NCBI RefSeq assembly: GCF_000003605.2
Contig: NW_003142304.1
Span: forward strand, 872,695 to 936,694
Length of the DNA: 64,000 nt
From: Saccoglossus kowalevskii
Taxonomy: Eukaryota > Hemichordata > Enteropneusta > Harrimaniidae
Reading direction: 5' to 3'
Shown here: positions 2,114-58,251 of the stretch, piece after piece
Numbering within the stretch: position 1 is the first letter of the stretch
How the letters are laid out: every line of letters starts with the position of its first letter
Program-made: the position numbers and the translations under genes
The notes under the pieces: generated by a model
Told to the model about the DNA's origin: nothing
Database searches by the model: none
Seen by the model: only the letters and a program-made list of their open reading frames with translations

Positions 2114-4940
2114 TTGATTGATTGATTGATTGAATTTATTCACTTAATTTACAGGCAATATTAATATAAGAATACAATAAAAACATCATTGAATTACATA
2201 GTGAATAGGGGGCTGGAAAATAGTGTAAAACACAAGTCGAGTCCACCCCCTTTTCAGGTGAAAAACAAACTACAATAATAAGTGGACGCTAAAAGAATTA
2301 CATACAACTCAATTATGCATAGTGTAAAAATCTTTTCATTTCTTTTTTGAATGCATTCTTGAGCTCATGGAATGAATTTCTTCTTTTGGTTTATTCCAGA
2401 TTTATGATATTTTGGAATAATAAGATTACCTAATGCTTTTGATTTTGTGTGATAAGAGTGTTGGATGGAAGAGAAATATTGAGGAAATCCCAGTGGTAAC
2501 TTGTCATTGAGATTATCATGAACAAACAAAGACATTTGTAAATCATGTTGTTTATAGATATCTATCTAGCACATGGAGCTGATTAAAAAGTGAAGAAGTG
2601 TGTGAGAGGTGATCTGACCCTGTTATTATGTCTGCAACTGCTACTTTAGTACTGTATCTCTCTCAGAACCCATATTGATGATTGTACAATAGATCAAAAC
2701 TTTTGAGATATGAGATCATTTGTTTGTTAATAATTTTCTCAAATATTTTGCTAATTTGTGGTAATACTGACTCTGTAATTGACTGAATCACTAGGTACTC
2801 CTTTTTTGATAATTTTTAGTCACTTTAGTTATTTTTAAAGAATTTGGAAGTCCACCTGTTGAAAACGATAAATTAATTATATGATTGAGAGGTCTGGAAA
2901 TGTACTCTGCGGCATAAATTACTTTTATCGAGTGTTTTTAGTAGTTGAAATATTTTGTTCCGAAGTTGCATGAAAAAAAAAGATTGTGGTAAGGATATGA
3001 ATGATAGGATTTAGTGCAATGATTTAAGTTATTAGCAAGTGCCTCCCCAACTGAGACAAAAAATGGTTAAACCCATTAACAATGTCATGTTAACAAGAGT
3101 GGTCTCTAAACCATTGTGTGTAGAAGACATATGAAGTGTACTTGGCAAATTTACATTATTCCTGCCACCAAGAATATCCTTAATAACTTTCCAAGTCTTA
3201 TTATTATCTCCTTGACAACATGTGAAAAATTCTGCTTAGCTCGTTTCAAAATACTTGTGAGCATGTTCCGATAGTGTTTATATTTTGCCAGGATAACTAG
3301 ATGGCAGTTACTTTTTAATACTTTTGAATATAGTTTGTGTTTGCAATCAATTGACTTTCTAATTCCTGCAGTTTTCCTTTTTTGGGTTAAAGGTTTAGTA
3401 ACGCATGCTTTTTACAAATACTCGAAAACTTGTTGACGTCAAAACTCTCATAAACACAGTTCCAGTCATCATGAAATGAGCTTACATTTAAATTGGAGTA
3501 GTTCCTAAAGCTCGCATTTTTCGGTTCTTGAAAATATATACAGAGATCATCAAAGATGGCAAAAATAGGCAAATGATAAGAAAAATCAACCTCCACTGTA
3601 CCACAATTTACAAAATTAGTAAGTGTGTTCGTATAATTATGATCAATAACCGTACGCGAGTGATTTGATATACGTGTCGGCATGGTAATCATTTGAATTA
3701 AATTCAGGGAGCACATACTATTGGTAAGATTGAGTGTTTCATTTGCATGGACATAATAAGTAATTATAATGAAGTCACGGATTCAAGGCTTTCAATATAT
3801 TATACCAACTATCAGCCATAGTGATTCAGAATGACTGATATTTGCTTGATGTGAACTGTAAAGATGTCTGAATATACGCCCCCACTCCCCCACCCCACTG
3901 GTCATTTCGACATTTAGTTTCCAAATGATACCCATCTAAACAATACAACTCTTTGTTTTGTATCTGCCAAATTTCAGAAAGTACAATGTCTTTGATTTTT
4001 GATTTAATAAGTGATTCGTAGAATAACTTGAAATCTTGAAAATTTCGATTGAGGGACCTAATATTATAATGTGAAATTGAAAAGGTAGACTTAGGTGTGT
4101 AATCTATCAGATTTAAGAACTGGAAAGAAAAATAAGATTTACAATTACCATAACTAGTGTTTACATTTTTATCCAACATTTAAATGTGTGAAAAATATCT
4201 CTGAATATATCTACAAAGGATATGGAATACTACACAAGATACTGCAGGATCATGCTCATTCTTTATGTTGGGAGATTGTGAATTCTCAGCCTTGCGTACA
4301 AATATCTGTCCATTTCTAGTCCAGAAGAATTTATAATTTGCCTGTTTGCGCTTCGCGTTGGCCAGTTTCAGAAGCCTTCGTGATTTAAGTTGTAGGTTCT
4401 CATTTATGTAGATTAGATTGCGGCCTCGAAATCCTAGGCTGCTAACAGTAACATTTGCGAGCTTCTTTTTATTCCGGTATATACTTTCTCGTTACTTCAA
4501 CATCCATTCCACTAAGTTCAGGGTCAATCTTTCGAAACATTACATCTTTGGTTTATGGTTGTATCAGCTCTCTCAGGGATACCTTTGGATCTCGATATTC
4601 TCACGCCGACTATATTGATTCTGTTCCTCTACTGATCTTTCCGATTATACAACTCTTCCCTGAAGATCTTCATTGACACATCTGATTTCTTTATTTGTAT
4701 GCTCCAATGTAGTACACCTGGATCTCAACTCTTCAACAATTTCATTGAAGAATTCCAGTGAGGTGCTTTTAGTATCCTGGCTAGTTTTCATCTCGTTAAT
4801 ACTTTCTAATATGGATGGTATGCATTTCACTCGGGCACTGATTTCTGATATTTGTTTTTCGATTTCTTCAGAATTTCCTTGGTGGTATAGTTTTGGGTAT
4901 GTAGGCGAATGTGTGGGGAAATGCTTGCTTTTACAACTCT
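2114..4940 (-). mobile_element. Degraded LINE (APE-type non-LTR retrotransposon)
   Basis: The element reads right to left. ORF1 remains lie at about 4300-4900: a coiled-coil stretch (EFFNEIVEELRSRC, 4645-4830), then an ORF1p-like core that reads as ENIEIQGIPE and NENLQLKSRRLLKLAN across several frames. ORF2 follows. Its endonuclease start at 3826-4179 has FSISHYNIRSLNRNF and GGGVGAYI, and the endonuclease end at 3387-3716 has YHLPIFAIF. Reverse-transcriptase remnants near 2600-2800 read ISKIFEKIINKQM and NHQYGF. The 3' end at 2114-2134 is a TTGA/TCAA tetranucleotide tail, typical of CR1/L2-group elements. Many frameshifts and stops are present and no ORF is intact. It is clearly a LINE; the clade is uncertain. 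Confidence 0.85.
3387..4179 (-). pseudogene. LINE ORF2 endonuclease domain remnant
   Basis: Two open pieces (4179-3826 and 3716-3387) hold the beginning and end of an APE-type endonuclease. The N-terminal NIRSLNRNFQDFKLFYESL and DIVLSEIW strings match the usual NxRSL and ETW positions (here SEIW). The GGGVGAYI loop follows. The late piece contains VDFSYHLPIFAIF, matching the SDHxPI catalytic end with the histidine retained. The two pieces are out of frame with each other, so the domain is dead. It belongs to the LINE at 2114-4940. Confidence 0.75.
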
Positions 4941-10030: not shown

Positions 10031-10275
10031 TTTTGCCATGTCATGACTCAAGCTCCTTAACTGTAAAATTTGTTTTCATTGGTCATGTCAATACAATATT
10101 TTTAAAAAAGATGCATGTTATTTTTTGATGCTGAATTCTTCGAGTCCAGAATTTAGAAATGACTTAAATTGTAACTTTATATTCAATTCAAATATTAAGT
10201 AATTTGTTGATTTTAAATAACATCGAACTTTATTTTACAACGCCTTTAATTTGCTTTGCAGGTAACACAACAATT

Positions 10276-11442
10276 ATGAATAGAAGTCTCCAGCGATCAG
10301 TCCTGTGCATGTGCATTTGTTTACCATTGTTCGTTGTTCTATATTATTTATATTGGCAAGGAAAATACCGAATATCAAATTTAAATTATGGCTATGTTAC
10401 ATCAAACCTGTCTAGCCAAATTACCCATCGTGAACAACCAGTATTTAACATGGTCAATAACAATGATACATTTGATTGGAAGGCATTAGTAGAAGTACTG
10501 GTCCTTGGCACTAATAATTGCAGTCTTTTGAATGAAGCACTACGTAAGAATTATAAAGTCTGCGATGCTGACAGGGAGTCTCTTCCAAACTTTTATTTGA
10601 ATAAAACCGGTAATAATGCTGTGAATGAGTACGTGTATCGTGAGGCTAATATTGTATTCGTCCATCTACCTAAAGCTGGTGGCACTTCTGTTGAAAAAAT
10701 TCTGTTCCAATTCAAACCGATTACTGGAGAGGTACGTACAGTTGCACTCGCTCATTGTATTGATTTTTTCAAAGAAGCAGTTAAGTCGAAAAGTAATGCT
10801 GTGCAGTCTATATATTACTCAAAACGCTCGTATGGGATTCATGACTATTTGTACCCAAAAAGGCCTGTAGGTTATGTCACGTGGTTTCGTGAGCCAGTAG
10901 CTAGGCTTATTTCAAGTTATTATTATCTGAAGAAGACGCACTGTGGATCAGCCCATGTTGTATGTAAGAAATATTTGATGAATTCCCCTTCACTGACGCA
11001 CTTTTTAAAACGCACGGAACATGTACATCTCCAAGATATGAGCAATTATATGGTACGACTGTTACAGTTTGGTGATTTCCCAGAAATTGATGACACTTTT
11101 GAAGATTGTTGTGGATCTGTGTCATTATCCGATGCCAGTAAAATACCTATCGTCGAAGAAAAACACTACCTCGTGGCTAAGAGAAATTTAGAAACCAAAA
11201 TGGCGTTCATTGGACTGACGGAAGACTTTGAAACATCTCAAGAAATGCTTGCAAATATGTTTGGTATATCACAGCTGACGGAAATGATTCATGTGAATTT
11301 TAATGCTCATAATCCAAATATTACTAACTATGAATTGAGTGAATTACGTAAACGAAATAAATGGGATTTGAAATTATATGAAGATGCAAGGAAGATATAC
11401 GAAGAACAAAAACAAAACTATATTAAGTACGTTCAATTATAA
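10276..11442 (+). CDS. Type II membrane carbohydrate sulfotransferase, copy 1
   Basis: The 388-residue product should transfer sulfate from PAPS to a glycan in the Golgi; the acceptor is unknown. Residues 1-9 are a short cytosolic tail and 10-27 a single membrane anchor. A lumenal domain follows with several N-glycosylation sequons (near 44, 63, 81, 109, 348). The 5'-phosphosulfate loop is HLPKAGGTS (130-138). The 3'-phosphate site is in WFREPVARLISSYYY, with Arg205 and Ser213/214. FIGLTEDFE (311-319) is a conserved late motif of this fold. I place the start at 10276 because a 3' splice site (TTTGCAG, ending 10261) lies 14 bp before it. The paralogue at 24055 shows the same arrangement, so a 5' non-coding exon must lie upstream. 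The coding region has no intron. The fold resembles the Sulfotransfer_2 group (heparan or chondroitin-type enzymes); substrate assignment would be guesswork. Confidence 0.87.
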   Translation: MNRSLQRSVLCMCICLPLFVVLYYLYWQGKYRISNLNYGYVTSNLSSQITHREQPVFNMVNNNDTFDWKALVEVLVLGTNNCSLLNEALRKNYKVCDADRESLPNFYLNKTGNNAVNEYVYREANIVFVHLPKAGGTSVEKILFQFKPITGEVRTVALAHCIDFFKEAVKSKSNAVQSIYYSKRSYGIHDYLYPKRPVGYVTWFREPVARLISSYYYLKKTHCGSAHVVCKKYLMNSPSLTHFLKRTEHVHLQDMSNYMVRLLQFGDFPEIDDTFEDCCGSVSLSDASKIPIVEEKHYLVAKRNLETKMAFIGLTEDFETSQEMLANMFGISQLTEMIHVNFNAHNPNITNYELSELRKRNKWDLKLYEDARKIYEEQKQNYIKYVQL

Positions 11443-23369: not shown

Positions 23370-24054
23370 ACAATGATGACTTTCAATAGGGTGAAAATCC
23401 AGGAACTATTGGTAATTCTCTCGAATTAATCCAAATATAAACACCAACTGTCAAATTAATGCTTTAAAGGAAACCCCAGCCAAGCACCATAATCTTTTTT
23501 CCCTACCTCTCTTAGACTAGCCGAGATGGTTTAGAAAATGAAACAAGGTGCTGACTTACTGGCGGAACTTCATCGACAACTTAAAAACAACATATTGGTT
23601 TTATCAGGAATGTCATGTACCTCTGAAACCACTTGAGCGTGGGTCTTCTCATACCAAGGGTAAACTGATTGTCTCTACCATCATCTCAACTGGTCAAATG
23701 TGTTCCTTGGAGGTTCCTTGTTCTAAATCAATTCCCATGTTGTTTGACTGAAGTAGTAGCATTTACATACTATGCCCCCAAACGCTTTTATAATGAAACA
23801 TGAAATGATGTTCATGATTTGAGGTTTCACAAATCGCCTTTGTTTACGATATTTACAATATCTCCAATGATATAAATAGAGGGTTTTTGTTTTCGTATTG
23901 TATTTCAGAAAATTGAACATACTGGGTGGATTATTTCTGTCGCCAATCAATGTCACATTGTCATTATCATAGAAGCCATACATATACGCTTGAACAAACA
24001 AGATGTTCAAATGTTCATTAGGTATTTTATTTTCTTTGCAGAAATCGCTGAACC

Positions 24055-25269
24055 ATGAATACAAGTGGCTTGCTGCGGTGGTTCTTGTGCATTTGTATCT
24101 GTTCAACAGTGGCAATTGTTTTATACTGGCAACGAATAAACCAATCCATTAATCCACGAACAGCGAGCTCTTATAAAATAGACGCCATAACTGATGTGAC
24201 TGATCATCCATGGATTAGCATAAACAGTCGAGGCTATAAACTAGACTGGAAAACTTTGGCAGAGGCCTTAGCTACTGACACAAACGGCACATGCAGTATT
24301 ATAAACACCGCATTGCGTAACTATTACAATACATCTGATGCTGGGAGAGAACCACTTCAAAATGCCTATCTAAATATGTTTGGTAATAATTCTGTGGACG
24401 CCAGTGAGTTTCACAATGCTAATATTATATTCGTACATCTACCTAAATCTGGTGGCACTTCTGTCGAGCAAGTTCTCTTCAAACTCAAACCGGATGTTGG
24501 AAAGATACGCAAAGTTGAACTGGCTCATTGCGGCCACATGTTGAAAGAAGCGATTATGTCCAAGAATAACCCAGCTCAGACAGTACATTATTCAAAGCGC
24601 TCTTATGGGTTCCATGATTATGTCTACTCTAATAGGTCCGTTGCTTATGTCACATGGTTTCGTGAACCAATATCTCGGCTTCTTTCATCGTATTATTATC
24701 TGAAGAAGACACACTGTGGATCTAATCACGTTGTTTGTAAGAAATACTTGATGAATTCTCCCTCACTCACACACTTTTTAAAACGCACGGAACATGTGCA
24801 TCTCCAAGATATGAGCAATTATATGGTACGACTATTACAGTTTGGTGATTTCCCAGAAATTGATGACACTTTTGAAGATTGTTGTGGATCAGTGACATTA
24901 TCTGATGCCAGTAAAATACCTATCATCGAAGAAAAGCACTACCTCGTTGCTAAGAGAAATTTAGAAACCAAAATGGCGTTCATTGGTCTGACGGAAGACT
25001 TTGAAACATCTCAGAAAATGTTAACCCATATGTTTGGTATTCCACAGCAAAGGAGAGCCGTTCATGTAAATGCCAATAGGCACAGATCACACATCGCCGG
25101 ATATGAACTAGCTCAACTGAGTGAACGGAATAAATGGGATTTGAAGTTATATGAAGATGCTAAGAAAATATATGAAGAACAAAAAAAAAACTACGTTAAG
25201 GCGTCACAACTGTGTAAAAAGCACCGTAAATGCGTATTTGGCATGAATTATAGTAATATAGTAATATAG
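24055..25269 (+). CDS. Type II membrane carbohydrate sulfotransferase, copy 2
   Basis: A 404-residue paralogue of the enzyme at 10276. It has a short cytosolic tail, a membrane anchor at residues 8-24, and a lumenal catalytic domain. The PAPS 5'-phosphosulfate loop is HLPKSGGTS (128-136). The 3'-phosphate site WFREPISRLLSSYYY has Arg203 and Ser211/212. FIGLTEDFE occurs at 309-317. The start lies 14 bp after a 3' splice site (TTTGCAG, ending 24041), the same gene structure as copy 1. The C-terminus is about 16 residues longer, ending in a basic, cysteine-containing tail. Residues 212-319 differ from copy 1 at about 3 positions, whereas the N-terminal third and the region after 320 differ heavily. 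The acceptor is unknown; the product should act in the Golgi using PAPS. Confidence 0.87.
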   Translation: MNTSGLLRWFLCICICSTVAIVLYWQRINQSINPRTASSYKIDAITDVTDHPWISINSRGYKLDWKTLAEALATDTNGTCSIINTALRNYYNTSDAGREPLQNAYLNMFGNNSVDASEFHNANIIFVHLPKSGGTSVEQVLFKLKPDVGKIRKVELAHCGHMLKEAIMSKNNPAQTVHYSKRSYGFHDYVYSNRSVAYVTWFREPISRLLSSYYYLKKTHCGSNHVVCKKYLMNSPSLTHFLKRTEHVHLQDMSNYMVRLLQFGDFPEIDDTFEDCCGSVTLSDASKIPIIEEKHYLVAKRNLETKMAFIGLTEDFETSQKMLTHMFGIPQQRRAVHVNANRHRSHIAGYELAQLSERNKWDLKLYEDAKKIYEEQKKNYVKASQLCKKHRKCVFGMNYSNIVI

Positions 25270-25660: not shown

Positions 25661-26520
25661 AAAGCACTTAGAAACTTTTTATAACGACCCCCCTTCCACA
25701 TCTCTGTATCTCCACTGACACATGCCGAGTGCGAAACACACATATCCGTGTTTCTTGCGTTATTGGTGCTACAAATAAGACATCAAATATGAATTTTAGT
25801 AAAAGAAAACAATAAATACTTTTCATGTTTTAACTTATAACATGAACACATGCGCAACATCGCAAACACGCTGCAATATAAGTTTTAACAGATGATTCAT
25901 TTGTAAAATGTTGCAAATATTTTGTTCACAACCAATCAAGTTGTGTGATAAGTCAGATCCCAGTTGGTCAGATGATGATTGTGTTTGGTTGGTTGGTTAT
26001 GTGTCAATTCGGGGGGTTCGCCCTCTCGTTTTATGACGCATAATCTCCCAAACTCGTTCATTATTTATTACATAGCAAAGAACATTCGAGTCATATACCT
26101 ATGGTGTGAAGTTACAATAAAAGAATAACAGATCCATGCATGTGCTGATAATAAACAATAATTTAACCAATTTTTTTTTTACTGGAAAAACCATGTTGTT
26201 CAGGACAGTTTAGATTGTGTAGTGACCGGGTCCACTGCGACTCTAACTAAGACCATGCAGGCAACTGATGTGATGAGACATGGATCGGTAATTACAAGCT
26301 TGTTTGCGGGTTCCCTTTTGGATGCCGTGTGCAAAGCACAGCAAGAGCATTGTAGTTACCTTCCCAGTGTAGTTGTACGCATGTGGTATATTAATTTTTT
26401 TCGGTTACATCATAAAAATACTTTGACCAATGTTTAACTATTGGAGTTATAACTGAATTTCCCCCACAGTCTTGGGAGCTCAACATTGTACAAGCTAGGC
26501 TTGAAGATTATATAGGGTGG
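25661..26520. other. Flank between sulfotransferase copy 2 and the LINE
   Basis: No gene was recognised. AATAAA strings near 25810 and 26117 could serve as polyadenylation signals for the upstream gene. An open frame at 26222-26437 has no family signature. Confidence 0.4.
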
Positions 26521-26597
26521 TATTTATTGCAATCAAATGTCTGTGGCCCAAAATACATAAACTATAAATAAAATATAAAGTAACAAAAACAGTAATG

Positions 26598-27354
26598 TCA
26601 CACACTGTGTTTATAAATTTCATAACGTAATTTAAGGGAATGAAAAAGAAAGGCTGCAAGAGATTTCAATTCATTTCTGTCTTTAGTCAACAACAAGTTT
26701 AAAAACTTCTCATATGAGAGCGGGGTAAAATAAGATCTAGGGATGTACGTTTTCCTACATTCATCAAAGAAGGGACAAATCAACAAAAAGTGTAATTCAT
26801 TTTCAATTTCTACGTTTTGTTTTCAAAGTGCACAAAGGCGTTGGGATATCATTTCTCCTGTCGGTTTCTATCCTAAGACAATGAGAAGAACAACTAAAAC
26901 GGGATAACATAAACCTATGATAGGGAATAGAAATAGCAAACAAATAACGCTCGTGCTCAACCCGCGTTTTAAAATTACAATAATTATTAAGTTTGTTCAA
27001 AGTTGTGACATCTCCTTGCCAATCTAAGTATAAACTATATTTTAGTCTAGAAACAAAAATGTTAACAAAATTACTGGTGTTCGATATCTCTTGCGACTCC
27101 CACACCTCATGCATATTACAGGAAAATAATAAATGTTTAACATTGGTCACCCAATTTGGTTGGTATCTCCTCTGGGACGTATCTAGATGAAGTAACATAA
27201 CATAACATTTCCGAGGATATCTATGTGCTGGCATACTCAGTAACTTGGCCCGATATTTAACGCATCTTTTTGCCGTGCTAAGGAACATTTTGTAACGCCC
27301 ACATTCCCCTAATACTACACAATTTGGTGCATTTTGGGAAACACCCAAGAACAT
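26598..27354 (-). pseudogene. LINE ORF2 C-terminal domain
   Basis: Two open pieces carry the conserved tail of this LINE type. The first (27354-26803) has FLGVSQNAPNCVVLGECGRY, the KYRAKLLSMP and RYPRKCYVMLL strings and a late FKTRVEHERYL. The second (26786-26598) has LLICPFFDECRKTYIP and a final LAAFLFHSLKLR, the usual end of ORF2. A frameshift separates them. They lie directly downstream of the reverse transcriptase. Confidence 0.8.
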
Positions 27355-27539
27355 TCTACATGCAAGGTGCTGGACGCGTTCAAGCGTTTAATAACCCTGG
27401 TGACCCCAAATTTCAGACCCGTAAGTTAAAAAAGGGGAAATCATAGTATCAAAAAAAATATTCATAAGGCAAGGGGCCAAATTTTCTGACGAGCTTGCGT
27501 AAACACATTAACGATTTTTTAGCCTGTTGGGCGAGTATT

Positions 27540-28802
27540 TTAGTAGCACTGAATCAATTTAACCGACAGGAAAACAAACACTCCCAAATACTTATAATAC
27601 GAAACAACATCTAGTCTTTTGTTATCATAAAACCACTTTTCAGTACTGGAAATCCTACCTCCCCCTTTAAAAACAACAACTTTAATCTTGGAAAGACTGA
27701 CAGACATTTTCCAAAGATTACAGTATTCACTTAAGTTATTCAACAGCCTCTGTAGCCCAATAATCAAATCAGAAAATAAAACAACGTCGTCTGCAAATAA
27801 TAAACACAGAATTTCTTCGAGATCGGGAGATAACTAAACCTCCTCTGTCCTGATGTCTGCAAATGAGAAGCCAACTCATTTATAAAAAACGAAAAAAGAA
27901 AAGGGCTCAGCATGCACACCTGTCTAACACCAACGGGACAGTCAAAGAATTCTGTGAAACCATTTATAGATTTCACACATGCTTTGACATTAATATATAT
28001 ATTAAATAACATTTTGAACATCCCCCCCCCCCTGATACCACCCTTTAATAGAATATACCAAAGCCTTTGACGCTCTACAGTGTTAGAGGCTTTGGAAAAA
28101 TCAATAAAGGCACAATAGAATTTCCCTTTTCTTCTGGTAATATACTTTTGAATGATTGCCTGCAAAATAAATATATTATCTATTGTTGAATAGCCTTTAC
28201 GAAACCCGGCTTGGTCCTCTGTAATGTTATAAAGAGCAGCTGACCAATTAACTCTATTTAAAAAACCTGTGAAAATTTTACTGAAAATGCTGAGCAGTGA
28301 AATACCCCTATAATTCTCCGGACTGTTTGGAGACCCATGCTTATACAAAGGAATAATGATAGCTCCCGCCCACTGCTCAGGGAAGACACTTGTTTCCCAA
28401 ATTTTATTAAAAAGTACATGGAGATAGGGGATGATAAAATCACTTGTTGTCTTACAAAATTCACCAAGAAGGCCATCTGCCCCCCCCCCGAGACTTGTCC
28501 CCTTTATGACTGGCTATGCCTAGCCTAATTTCCTCCGTGCTAATTGGGTAATTAATCAATTCAAGCTCAAAATCTGGCAAAATATCATCCACCTCGGTCA
28601 ACATAGTTTCTAACTCGGCAGCTAAATGAAAATCGTAAACAGCGCCACTACAGTCAAATAAACCACTAAAGTAATTAAACCACTGGTCAGAATGTATATT
28701 GGAATATAAAGGGGTATATGATGAATTTACTTTTCTAAGTTTTGACCAAAAAGAATTGGGATCTGCAAGACTCCTCAACAAACTGGCTCTTTCGACGTTC
28801 AA
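27540..28802 (-). pseudogene. LINE ORF2 reverse transcriptase
   Basis: Open pieces at 28802-28461, 28348-27764 and 27767-27540 read in order. They give the pre-RT region (ERASLLRSLADPNSFWSKLRK), NYRGISLLSIFSKIF, DQAGFRKGYSTIDNIF, FIDFSKASNTV (motif A; the usual AFDTV reads SNTV), GVRQVCMLSPFLFS (motif B; usually GVRQGC) and LLFADDVVLFSD (motif C, the FADD active site, about 27770-27805). SYYKYLGVFV closes the domain. At least two frameshifts and the motif A change make it inactive, yet preservation is good. Confidence 0.87.
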
Positions 28803-28855
28803 AAACTGTTTTTCTTACTCCTGCATAAAGACATAAACCGATTTCTCAAATCTTT

Positions 28856-29990
28856 TTACTCCCACAGAATATTTAAATTTCCCTCCCGACAAAAGAGCCT
28901 TAACAAATCATATTTTTGCTTTTTCATAACTCTGCAATCCTGATCAAACCACGCAGGTTGCCGACGACCAGCTTGCCCCCGAGTACCAACCCTTTCAACC
29001 ATGCTACATTTCGTTGCCGTGGCAACACAAACTCCATTAAATAAATTAATAAAGTGGTTAATATCTGTGGCTGGGTCATCAATGATAACATTTAGGCCAG
29101 CCTTGTTACCTTCTTCCTTAAAAATATCCCTAAATACATCGGCACGGTCCGCAGACCACACAAATTTACTTATACCATTTGGGGATTCACAGTTGGGCTC
29201 AGTATTTTTATTTAAACCAGACAGTATAATGTCAAAAGTAAGTGGTAAGTGATCTGATTCAATGCGTAACGGAGTATTGAAATTTAACAAATTGTTATAC
29301 AATGATGTGGATACTAAAATATAATCAATATCGCTGGGACCAGAATGTGAAAGACAAGTAAAATCCCCGTTATATTTATCCGACTCACCCTGCCGTTTAA
29401 CATGTGTAAATTGAAAGAGATGCAAAGGAACAACAACGCCCGTCCAAAAGTGTTAATGACCTTGTCTATTAGAAACACGTGGTAATGCGAAAGTATCTTC
29501 TTCATATTCCGTTACATCACTTATCACAAAAGAAGGACTGTCATCAAAAATGTAATCAGGTTCCCCACCTGTTCTTGCATTTAAATCACCAGAAACAATG
29601 ACATGTACATCGGGCAAATTTCCTAAAACATCGAGTAAACCAGATTCAAACAATTCAATACCATTTTCTACACCCATACCATCGAGAAAAGTTTAATATT
29701 GGGGAGGCATGTACGTACTGGCAATAAGTAAATCTTTTGTAAAATCAAAAATAAACCCATCGTATTTAACCAGATAACTTTTAATTAATACACGTTCAAA
29801 TCTACCACGGCGAGCTCTTTTTGACGCCATGTACTAAATGCTCTGAAACCGGGAAAGTTATCATCAAAATGGTTTTCAGCCCAAGTTTTCTATAATGGTA
29901 ATAACATCAAAAGATAACAAAGAATTAACTAAATCTGGATTCAAAAATTTTTGTTTCAGACTCCGTACATTCCACAAAATAAATCTCACT
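28856..29990 (-). pseudogene. LINE ORF2 APE-type endonuclease
   Basis: The domain start (ILWNVRSL, about 29970) is broken by stops. Later pieces read VIVSGDLNARTGGEPDYI (29677-29453), with the GDLNARTG metal-site motif, then NTFGRALLFLCISFNLHMLNGR. The last piece (29425-28856) has PSDIDYILVS and IESDHLPLTFDI, the catalytic SDHxP motif. RRQPAWFDQDC opens the linker to the reverse transcriptase. Several frameshifts are present. Confidence 0.83.
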
Positions 29991-30099
29991 TTCTGAGAGC
30001 CATGGCCTAACCGTTATTCGTGAGTAATCGGTGTGCTATGTTTAACCTGAGAACGAGTTCTCGGACGTGCTCCGGTAGCCTGGTTACGATCCATCTGAT

Positions 30100-30746
30100 T
30101 AATTTCTGGTGATTGTGCTGGAATTGGTGGGGGTAATGACGATGTCAGATGCGTAGCGACAGTGCCAGTGGTAGATGACGGAGAAGTGCGATCCTCAATA
30201 AAAAACGTCCTCTTTGGTTCTGTTGCACTATACGATGGGCCCTAACGATATCTTTGACGTTGCATGGCGATTTAATATTTCAACCACTTTGTCTTTGCAG
30301 ACATCATTTGTTTCCTTTTCTGTTTCCGAAATATCATACAGACTGATGTTATCCCTTCTCGAAAATGTTTCCAAAGAATCAGCATCGCGTTCAACTTCTT
30401 CCATATGACATAAAATATTATCTATTTTTTATCTAACGCATCATAATTGAGTTGGTTAACGTGGCCAGTTTCCTTCTGGCTGGATATGATTTACTGTAGA
30501 TCGCAGTGAATTAAATTGCTTATCAAGGTTTTCGCATGTCGAAAAAAGTTCACACTGCTTCGCTTTTAGCTCAGAAAGTTCATTACTAAGTTTCCTACCC
30601 GTGCCTCTGACTTCTTCCAGTAATTCACATTTCATGGTTTGAAGTGCTTTAATAATGTCGGAATCGGGTCCTGGATTACTCTCAACATCGCCAGCAAGCT
30701 GTAACATATTTCCAACAAACGGATAACGTTCACCAACTCTTGGCAT
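30100..30746 (-). pseudogene. LINE ORF1 with N-terminal 2A ribosome-skipping motif
   Basis: The frame starts MPRVGERYPFVGNMLQLAG and reaches GDVESNPGP (30692-30666). This matches the 2A consensus D(V/I)ExNPGP, at which ribosomes fail to join the last Gly-Pro bond and release the upstream peptide. After it comes a coiled coil (KALQTMKCELLEEV to FNSLRSTVNHIQ). After a break, an ORF1p-like segment (EREVDSLETFSRRDNISLYD, KVVEILNRHA) is followed by a Pro/Ser/Thr-rich end. The motif itself is intact. As read here the peptide before the motif is about 26 residues, like those proposed to act as targeting signals in related LINEs and proteins. Confidence 0.82.
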
Positions 30747-30769
30747 GCGAGAAATGGAAGATTATACTA

Positions 30770-57729: not shown

Positions 57730-58251
57730 ATTTTAGTTTGTCTGTCGTGGGTGAGGGATACTTTCCCAGAACGCAACGATAACTCTCGGCGGCTCCTAGT
57801 CTGGGATTCGTGCAGCGTCCATCTCACATCGAAAGTTAAAGAAGAGCTTTATTCCCGAAACGTCGACATCGCTGTAATTCCTGGTGGTTTAACGTCTCTT
57901 CTCCAGCCGTTAGATGTCGGCGTAAATAAACCACTGAAGGATTACATGCACGCGGAGTGGGACGAGTGGATGAAGACTGGGGAAACACTGTTTACTCCGG
58001 CTGGTAAACGCAAAGCCCCCGTCAAGAAGACAGTACTCGAGTGGGTCGTTTCGTCATGGAACAGAGTTCCCGCATCTACTGTGATAAATTCTTTTAAGAA
58101 GCCAGGGATATCAAATTCACTTGATGGATCTGAAGACAACTTAATTTATGAAGATCTAGAAACAGACGATGAGGCAGTTGGCGAAGAAATCGCTGAAATA
58201 TTTTACAGTGACGACGATGATGACAGCAGCGACGACTTTCTAGGATTTTAA
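57730..58251 (+). CDS. Pogo/Tigger (DDE_1) transposase, C-terminal part
   Basis: The open frame reads LLVWDSCSVHLT, which carries the second catalytic Asp of the DDE/D domain. It continues with VDIAVIPGGLTSLLQPLDVGVNKPLKDYM, the signature of CENP-B/jerky/Tigger transposases, and a late ASTVINSFKKPGISN. The last 40 residues are very acidic (EDLETDDEAVGEEIAEIF, then a DDDDDSSDD run), as in several Tigger elements. No ATG starts this piece. The frame opens after a stop near 57729, and a TTTTAG at 57731-57736 could be a 3' splice site. The N-terminal DNA-binding part and first Asp would be in or before the gap. This part has no internal stop. Confidence 0.85.
   Translation: MLVCLSWVRDTFPERNDNSRRLLVWDSCSVHLTSKVKEELYSRNVDIAVIPGGLTSLLQPLDVGVNKPLKDYMHAEWDEWMKTGETLFTPAGKRKAPVKKTVLEWVVSSWNRVPASTVINSFKKPGISNSLDGSEDNLIYEDLETDDEAVGEEIAEIFYSDDDDDSSDDFLGF

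Follow-up and report, generated by a model that had tools for sequence, protein, structure and literature searches.

A decayed LINE of the hemichordate Saccoglossus kowalevskii encodes the core of a 2A/StopGo sequence at the start of its first open reading frame (ORF1), directly ahead of a coiled coil. The element lies in a stretch of 64,000 nucleotides of contig NW_003142304.1 that was analyzed as a whole and is referred to here as the window. Comparison with related elements makes it probable that the core is a true 2A/StopGo site and belongs to the L-rich class; in the live ancestor it would have separated a short leader peptide from a separate coiled-coil ORF1p.

The 2A core and its reading frame

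On the minus strand, positions 30692-30666 encode the nonapeptide GDVESNPGP as part of the reading MPRVGERYPFVGNMLQLAG-DVESNPGP-DSDIIKALQTMKCELLEEV, which continues beyond this segment. The initial annotation had claimed agreement with the 2A consensus at all key positions, and the window letters confirm it. The core octapeptide DVESNPGP itself (30666..30689, minus strand) fits the expanded StopGo consensus (D/G/C/N)(V/I)ExNPGP, and a skip would be expected between the G and the last P. Judged by eye, the upstream hexapeptide MLQLAG, together with D at p12 and S at p15, agrees with the L-rich class that section 10 of PMC12846837 describes as ending in (A/S/C)G.

The candidate 2A leader, MPRVGERYPFVGNMLQLAG-DVESNPG/P with the stroke marking the expected skip, occupies 30666..30746 of the minus strand. 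It opens with an ATG at 30746-30744 that stands 19 codons ahead of the D codon, and not about 25 codons as first annotated; from this Met to the skipped Gly there are 26 residues. The leader is mildly hydrophobic, with a best 11-residue Kyte-Doolittle mean of 0.81. Since the corresponding codon is ATA in the sister copy of the element (see below), the ATG stays a candidate start. If it is used, the 5' untranslated stretch measures about 10-13 bases, which is odd for a scanned start. An in-frame stop at 30764-30762 bounds the open reading frame on the upstream side, and this stop is flanking DNA because the element starts at about 30756-30759.

A functionless chance likeness in a coiled-coil reading frame is highly improbable. 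One apparent instance of such a likeness is DIESNPGP in a phage tail protein (L001, 3593-3618), presumably accidental and the single match of the pattern in viral_contigs. For the window, however, base composition predicts 2.4e-5 chance occurrences of D(V/I)ExNPGP, and 1.2e-4 of the wider core. The pattern [DGCN][VI]ExNPGP has a single occurrence in the six frames of the 64 kb, 1610 bases of which are N, and this occurrence is also the sole NPGP. The host genome as a whole (572 Mb in 4830 contigs) likewise speaks against chance: the DNA pattern for GD(V/I/M)ExNPGP was found at 38 exact places, all with V or I as the second core residue, versus 0 places genome-wide for the reversed control pattern. 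The finding that had been named as refuting chance, a core kept above its surroundings in ORF1 relatives, was obtained as well and is described below.

When the 38 places were set against 150 scored reverse transcriptase (RT) matches, four of them (the window, C4443, C3223 and C2597) were found to lie 1.8-3.0 kb 5' of an RT match on the same strand. Besides the window this makes 3 of 37, compared with about 0.015 such places near an RT expected by arithmetic. In total 24 sites were examined as 2A sequences, namely those of the window, L005, L047 and L054 and 20 pattern places that were read with their flanks, L054 being also among the 38. The residue ahead of the Gly is A, S or C in 20 of the 24, and 18 of the 24 pass a home-made test for L-richness. 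The next 45 codons are free of stops in 13 of these sites, two of the 13 running into unread N.

2A carriers of a second type were seen at L056, L059, L060, L063 and L064 (contigs C2, C93, C126, C942 and C1007). Here an MR-(I/L)LLLSG-like leader is followed by D(V/I)ExNPGP and then by an HQGS-like stretch; the carrier is not evidently a LINE, and the L064 peptide matched no family in Pfam. One identical core DNA word, encoding DVETNPGP, is common to 12 of the 38 pattern places. C2538 is among these 12, as is L056, which has stops downstream of the core.

The element and its sister copy

The whole 2A-bearing copy extends over 26513..30756 of the minus strand, 4244 bp between candidate target-site duplications, and its homology to the sister copy runs from 30759 to 26518. 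All features of the element given here are on this strand. The coiled coil that had been annotated right after the motif is borne out by heptad periodicity in the 69-residue ORF1 segment following the 2A (30459..30665), with only 1 of 1000 shuffles scoring as well; past a frame break, the segment runs into a stop. The remaining ORF1 (30017..30428) is distributed over several frames and consists of what we take to be an RRM-like region and a tail. The corresponding stretch of the sister copy, L005:3610-4386, is an open frame, and searches of Pfam and the PDB with this RRM/CTD part gave no relevant match. A type II (L1-like) ORF1 is built as a coiled coil followed by an RRM and a CTD, and of these the coiled coil is the one supported here. 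ORF1 ends at a TAA (30014..30016), beyond which an endonuclease-like frame goes on in the same frame in both copies. After this TAA neither copy has an ATG before the endonuclease-like frame (window 30016-30014; L005 4384-4386 region), and a nearby ATG at 30003 opens just MALRK, then a stop. ORF2p may have been made by readthrough or reinitiation past the ORF1 TAA.

The endonuclease-like region of ORF2 (28856..30013) contains GDLNARTG, SDIDYI and SDHLP, which we presume to be endonuclease motifs, and by eye the enzyme appears to be APE-like. Its Pfam match to Exo_endo_phos_2 (E 0.14) is below the cut-off, and the endonuclease pieces gave no match in the PDB. The reverse transcriptase (27540..28513) is encoded in two frames and is of the LINE type, as judged by RVT_1 (E 1.4e-12 for the first piece) and human LINE-1 ORF2p (8.1e-17). 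The C-terminal region of ORF2 (26601..27387) has a Cys/His-type motif at its end; in the sister copy it matches zf-RVT with an E of 0.035, below the cut-off. The annotation as a LINE ORF1 bearing an N-terminal 2A-type core is supported.

Counted by eye over about 4.1 kb, the reading frame changes about 16 times and is interrupted by at least 4 stops. The window copy is dead and no full ORF1p can be produced from it. The candidate target-site duplication TATAATCTTC is a 10-base direct repeat with its 5' copy at 30757..30766 and its 3' copy at 26503..26512. Because a shared word of at least 10 bases arises in 74 of 2000 shuffles of the same composition, this repeat alone is only suggestive. The flanks (30977-30733 and 26502-26160) are RT-like by eye and form one frame across the joined insertion site. 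We considered that the element had inserted into another LINE's RT gene, but the flanks gave no relevant match in Pfam or the PDB and the idea is therefore a lead only.

Elsewhere in the window, two long ORFs on the plus strand (10204-11442 and 24052-25269) are alike by eye and match Sulfotransfer_2 with E values of 1.3e-5 and 8.1e-8; they are probably duplicated sulfotransferase-type genes. A DDE_1 transposase fragment (1.6e-16) is located at 57751-58251 of the plus strand. The endonuclease-like start of another LINE, ISHYNIRSLNRN..., was recognized by eye on the minus strand at 3826-4179, and it has no Pfam match.

A DNA search of the genome with ORF1 returned three places, the window and two pieces of one further copy on contig C3226 (L005). 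Homology between this sister copy and the window reaches from 30759 to 26518 and is interrupted by insertions and one deletion. Since both ends are common to the two, both copies appear to be nearly complete, with hardly any 5' leader. The sister ORF1 is open after its insertion up to the TAA. No target-site duplication of at least 7 bases was found around L005. The identity between the copies is 87-92% across the aligned pieces, from which each is perhaps 4-6% from the source. The core of the sister reads DVESNP*S. Over 186 aligned bases the two copies differ at 3 of 24 positions in the core and at 11 of 162 in the rest, so the core is not specially conserved inside this two-copy family.

The initial annotation had also stressed that the motif is intact in an element otherwise full of frameshifts. 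The core is indeed intact amid the frame changes counted above, and this tells little. In a neutral-decay simulation that used the by-eye density of frame changes, a legal core survived with P 0.67 at 2% divergence, 0.58 at 3%, 0.42 at 5%, 0.26 at 8% and 0.19 at 10%. As each copy may have diverged by 4-6% from the source, the intact core is not telling, and the idea that intactness shows selection was rejected on the basis of this simulation.

Conservation of the core in related elements

To an intact motif in a single dead copy, which proves little, the comparison between families adds the deciding evidence. Searching the genome with the RT protein gave 1139 candidates, of which 150 were scored, and 20 loci were read over 5.5-8.5 kb each. 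The scan for cores covered 54 of 55 loci, about 282 kb including overlaps, the phage contig L001 being left out. Besides the window, intact cores were present in 2 of the 20 RT loci, as NVESNPGP in L047 and as DVELNPGP in L054; that of the sister copy is altered. Both loci had been chosen by RT similarity (44% identity to the window for L047 and 39% for L054) and not by motif. In both the core lies on the RT strand, 5' of an endonuclease-like region and with ORF1-like sequence next to it, and in L054 it precedes a coiled coil as judged by eye. At the seven key codons L047 differs from the window by five synonymous changes and one non-synonymous change (D to N); a variant with N at p12 is reported as active (PMC12846837). 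No core was found in the other 18 RT loci read, most of which are without a recognized ORF1. The ORF1 queries recognized an ORF1 in three of these 18 (L042, L049 and L052), each without a recognizable 2A or N-terminus, and these homologues are uninformative either way.

A protein search with ORF1, using a query that included the motif, yielded 19 rows from 21 scored candidates, and 16 rows span the core. The expanded consensus is fitted by 10 of the 16, while 6 are altered. Strict D(V/I)ExNPGP is found in 8 of the 16 spanning rows and in 3 of the 9 strong rows, defined by an E of at most 1e-3 with the window left out. In C1993 and C4228 the core begins with N, and C3325 has S for the Gly before the core. 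Apart from the NP*S of the sister, the alterations are N to Y in C1572, E to D in C3944, N to K in both C4610 and C1914:161456, and a deletion in C173, a weak relative. The same Asn codon is changed in three of these, to Tyr at C1572:139166-139189 and to Lys at C4610:523288-523311 and C1914:161489-161512. The initial annotation had held that the motif would be refuted if other family copies lacked it, and on this point the answer is divided: four of the nine strong rows fit the expanded consensus, and five are altered, including the sole sister copy. A 2A is recognizable by eye in all nine. The weak rows cannot be counted as independent because they were found partly through the 2A itself.

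For a comparison cell by cell we used seven strong relatives outside the family, with C1000 left out and two rows trimmed. In these relatives, which are not independent and represent about three subfamilies, the window residue recurs at the seven key positions of the core in 44 of 49 cells if V and I are equated and in 38 of 49 if they are not. With V and I equated, the corresponding figures are 40 of 78 cells for the leader and 82 of 181 for the 31 downstream residues, and 122 of 259 cells match outside the core in total. The core is therefore the best-kept part of the start of ORF1. Because related LINEs keep the motif better than the surrounding protein, it was probably used in a living LINE, a use already known from certain other LINEs.

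A 2A that functioned in an older ancestor and that the window's family and some others could already do without is quite unlikely. The altered cores of the sister, C4610, C1914:161456, C1572, C3944 and C173 fit this possibility. Three of these copies (C3944, C4610 and C1914:161456) are not plainly dead within their matches, since no stop was scored there. On the other hand, no altered copy except C173 has more than two changed core residues, and the core is intact in C170 and C1000, close kin of C4610 and C1572, as decay after insertion predicts.

The variation around the core bears on what the leader does. The leader sequence and the length of the open frame vary between families and the core is kept, which would suit a motif whose main effect is a pause in translation or an N-terminal Pro on ORF1p, with a leader that has no role. 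We consider this somewhat unlikely, because P14, L20 and A23 of the leader are kept in all relatives compared, and all 6 relatives that reach position 19 have L there, where the window has M. The kept leader positions could be exit-tunnel contacts or reflect a function of the leader.

Proposed translation and relation to known systems

According to the reading that we favor, a genuine skipping site between leader and ORF1p, the ribosome in the live ancestor would make a short hydrophobic leader ending in ...LQLAGDVESNPG. The nascent chain would then disturb the peptidyl transferase center at ...NPG, and the Gly-Pro bond would not be formed. The leader would be freed and synthesis would resume, giving an ORF1p that starts with Pro ahead of the coiled coil. 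Disturbance of the peptidyl transferase center, release of the chain and restart with Pro correspond to the published 2A mechanism (PMC12846837). We infer skipping activity and release of the leader from the sequence comparison. The L-rich motifs 2 and 6 among the StopGo/2A sequences described in PMC12846837 share with the window the (A/S/C)G end of the hexapeptide, D at p12 and S at p15. Those sequences are viral, whereas the site in the window is N-terminal and belongs to a retrotransposon.

A similar layout occurs in host genes. Fourteen NLR proteins of Strongylocentrotus purpuratus carry a 26-residue N-terminal 2A, 12 of the 14 being predicted signal sequences, and one such 2A was shown to be both a signal sequence and a recoding site; when skipping fails, the product enters the secretory pathway (PMC4981915). 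By analogy, the leader in the window might be a weak signal or membrane sequence with partial skipping by design, so that ORF1p would be made with and without it. Counted to the Gly, the window leader is likewise 26 residues long, and L-rich leaders occur at several other sites in the genome. In contrast to the sea-urchin proteins, which are host immune genes, the window site lies in a LINE ORF1, and its N-terminus is a candidate only. Because the leader is just mildly hydrophobic, such dual targeting is possible but not favored, and we regard it as unlikely.

That 2A-like sequences occur in APE-type LINEs is already known. Odon et al. reportedly described them in 2013 in APE-type non-LTR retrotransposons of the Rex1, Crack, L2, L2A, CR1 and Ingi clades, and are said to have linked 2A to single-ORF elements. 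These LINEs have the same core as the window and are the same kind of element. The window element is unlike such single-ORF elements, since its coiled-coil ORF1 ends in a TAA before the endonuclease-like region. Heras et al. are said to have described in 2006 a 2A in frame with the proteins of L1Tc of Trypanosoma cruzi, which is like the window in having a 2A in a non-LTR retrotransposon and reportedly is a single-ORF trypanosome element. Among the matches listed in a search of titles and abstract openings, a scope outside which the text of Odon et al. 2013 lies, none described a 2A-bearing LINE with a coiled-coil ORF1.

Searches of other collections confirmed no relatives in viral_contigs (RT and ORF1) or in genome_contigs (RT). 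The plasmids gave one RT match, in Alicyclobacillus, with 30% identity and an E of 4e-22.

An N-terminal 2A long kept in coiled-coil LINE ORF1s across families whose RTs are at 39-44%, joined with the same-frame TAA of the window's family, might allow the leader, ORF1p and ORF2p to come from one frame through two recoding events, with readthrough or reinitiation supplying ORF2p. As a complete scheme this is speculative and, in our estimate, improbable. What the present analysis adds to the known LINEs is a single genome in which 2A sites are numerous, several preceding a coiled-coil LINE ORF1, and a family, that of the window, in which ORF1 ends before ORF2. Recoding by 2A would be shared by several LINE lineages of one genome, some of them distant from one another. 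The intact and altered 2A sites form a natural series that is useful for testing key residues in animal retroelements.
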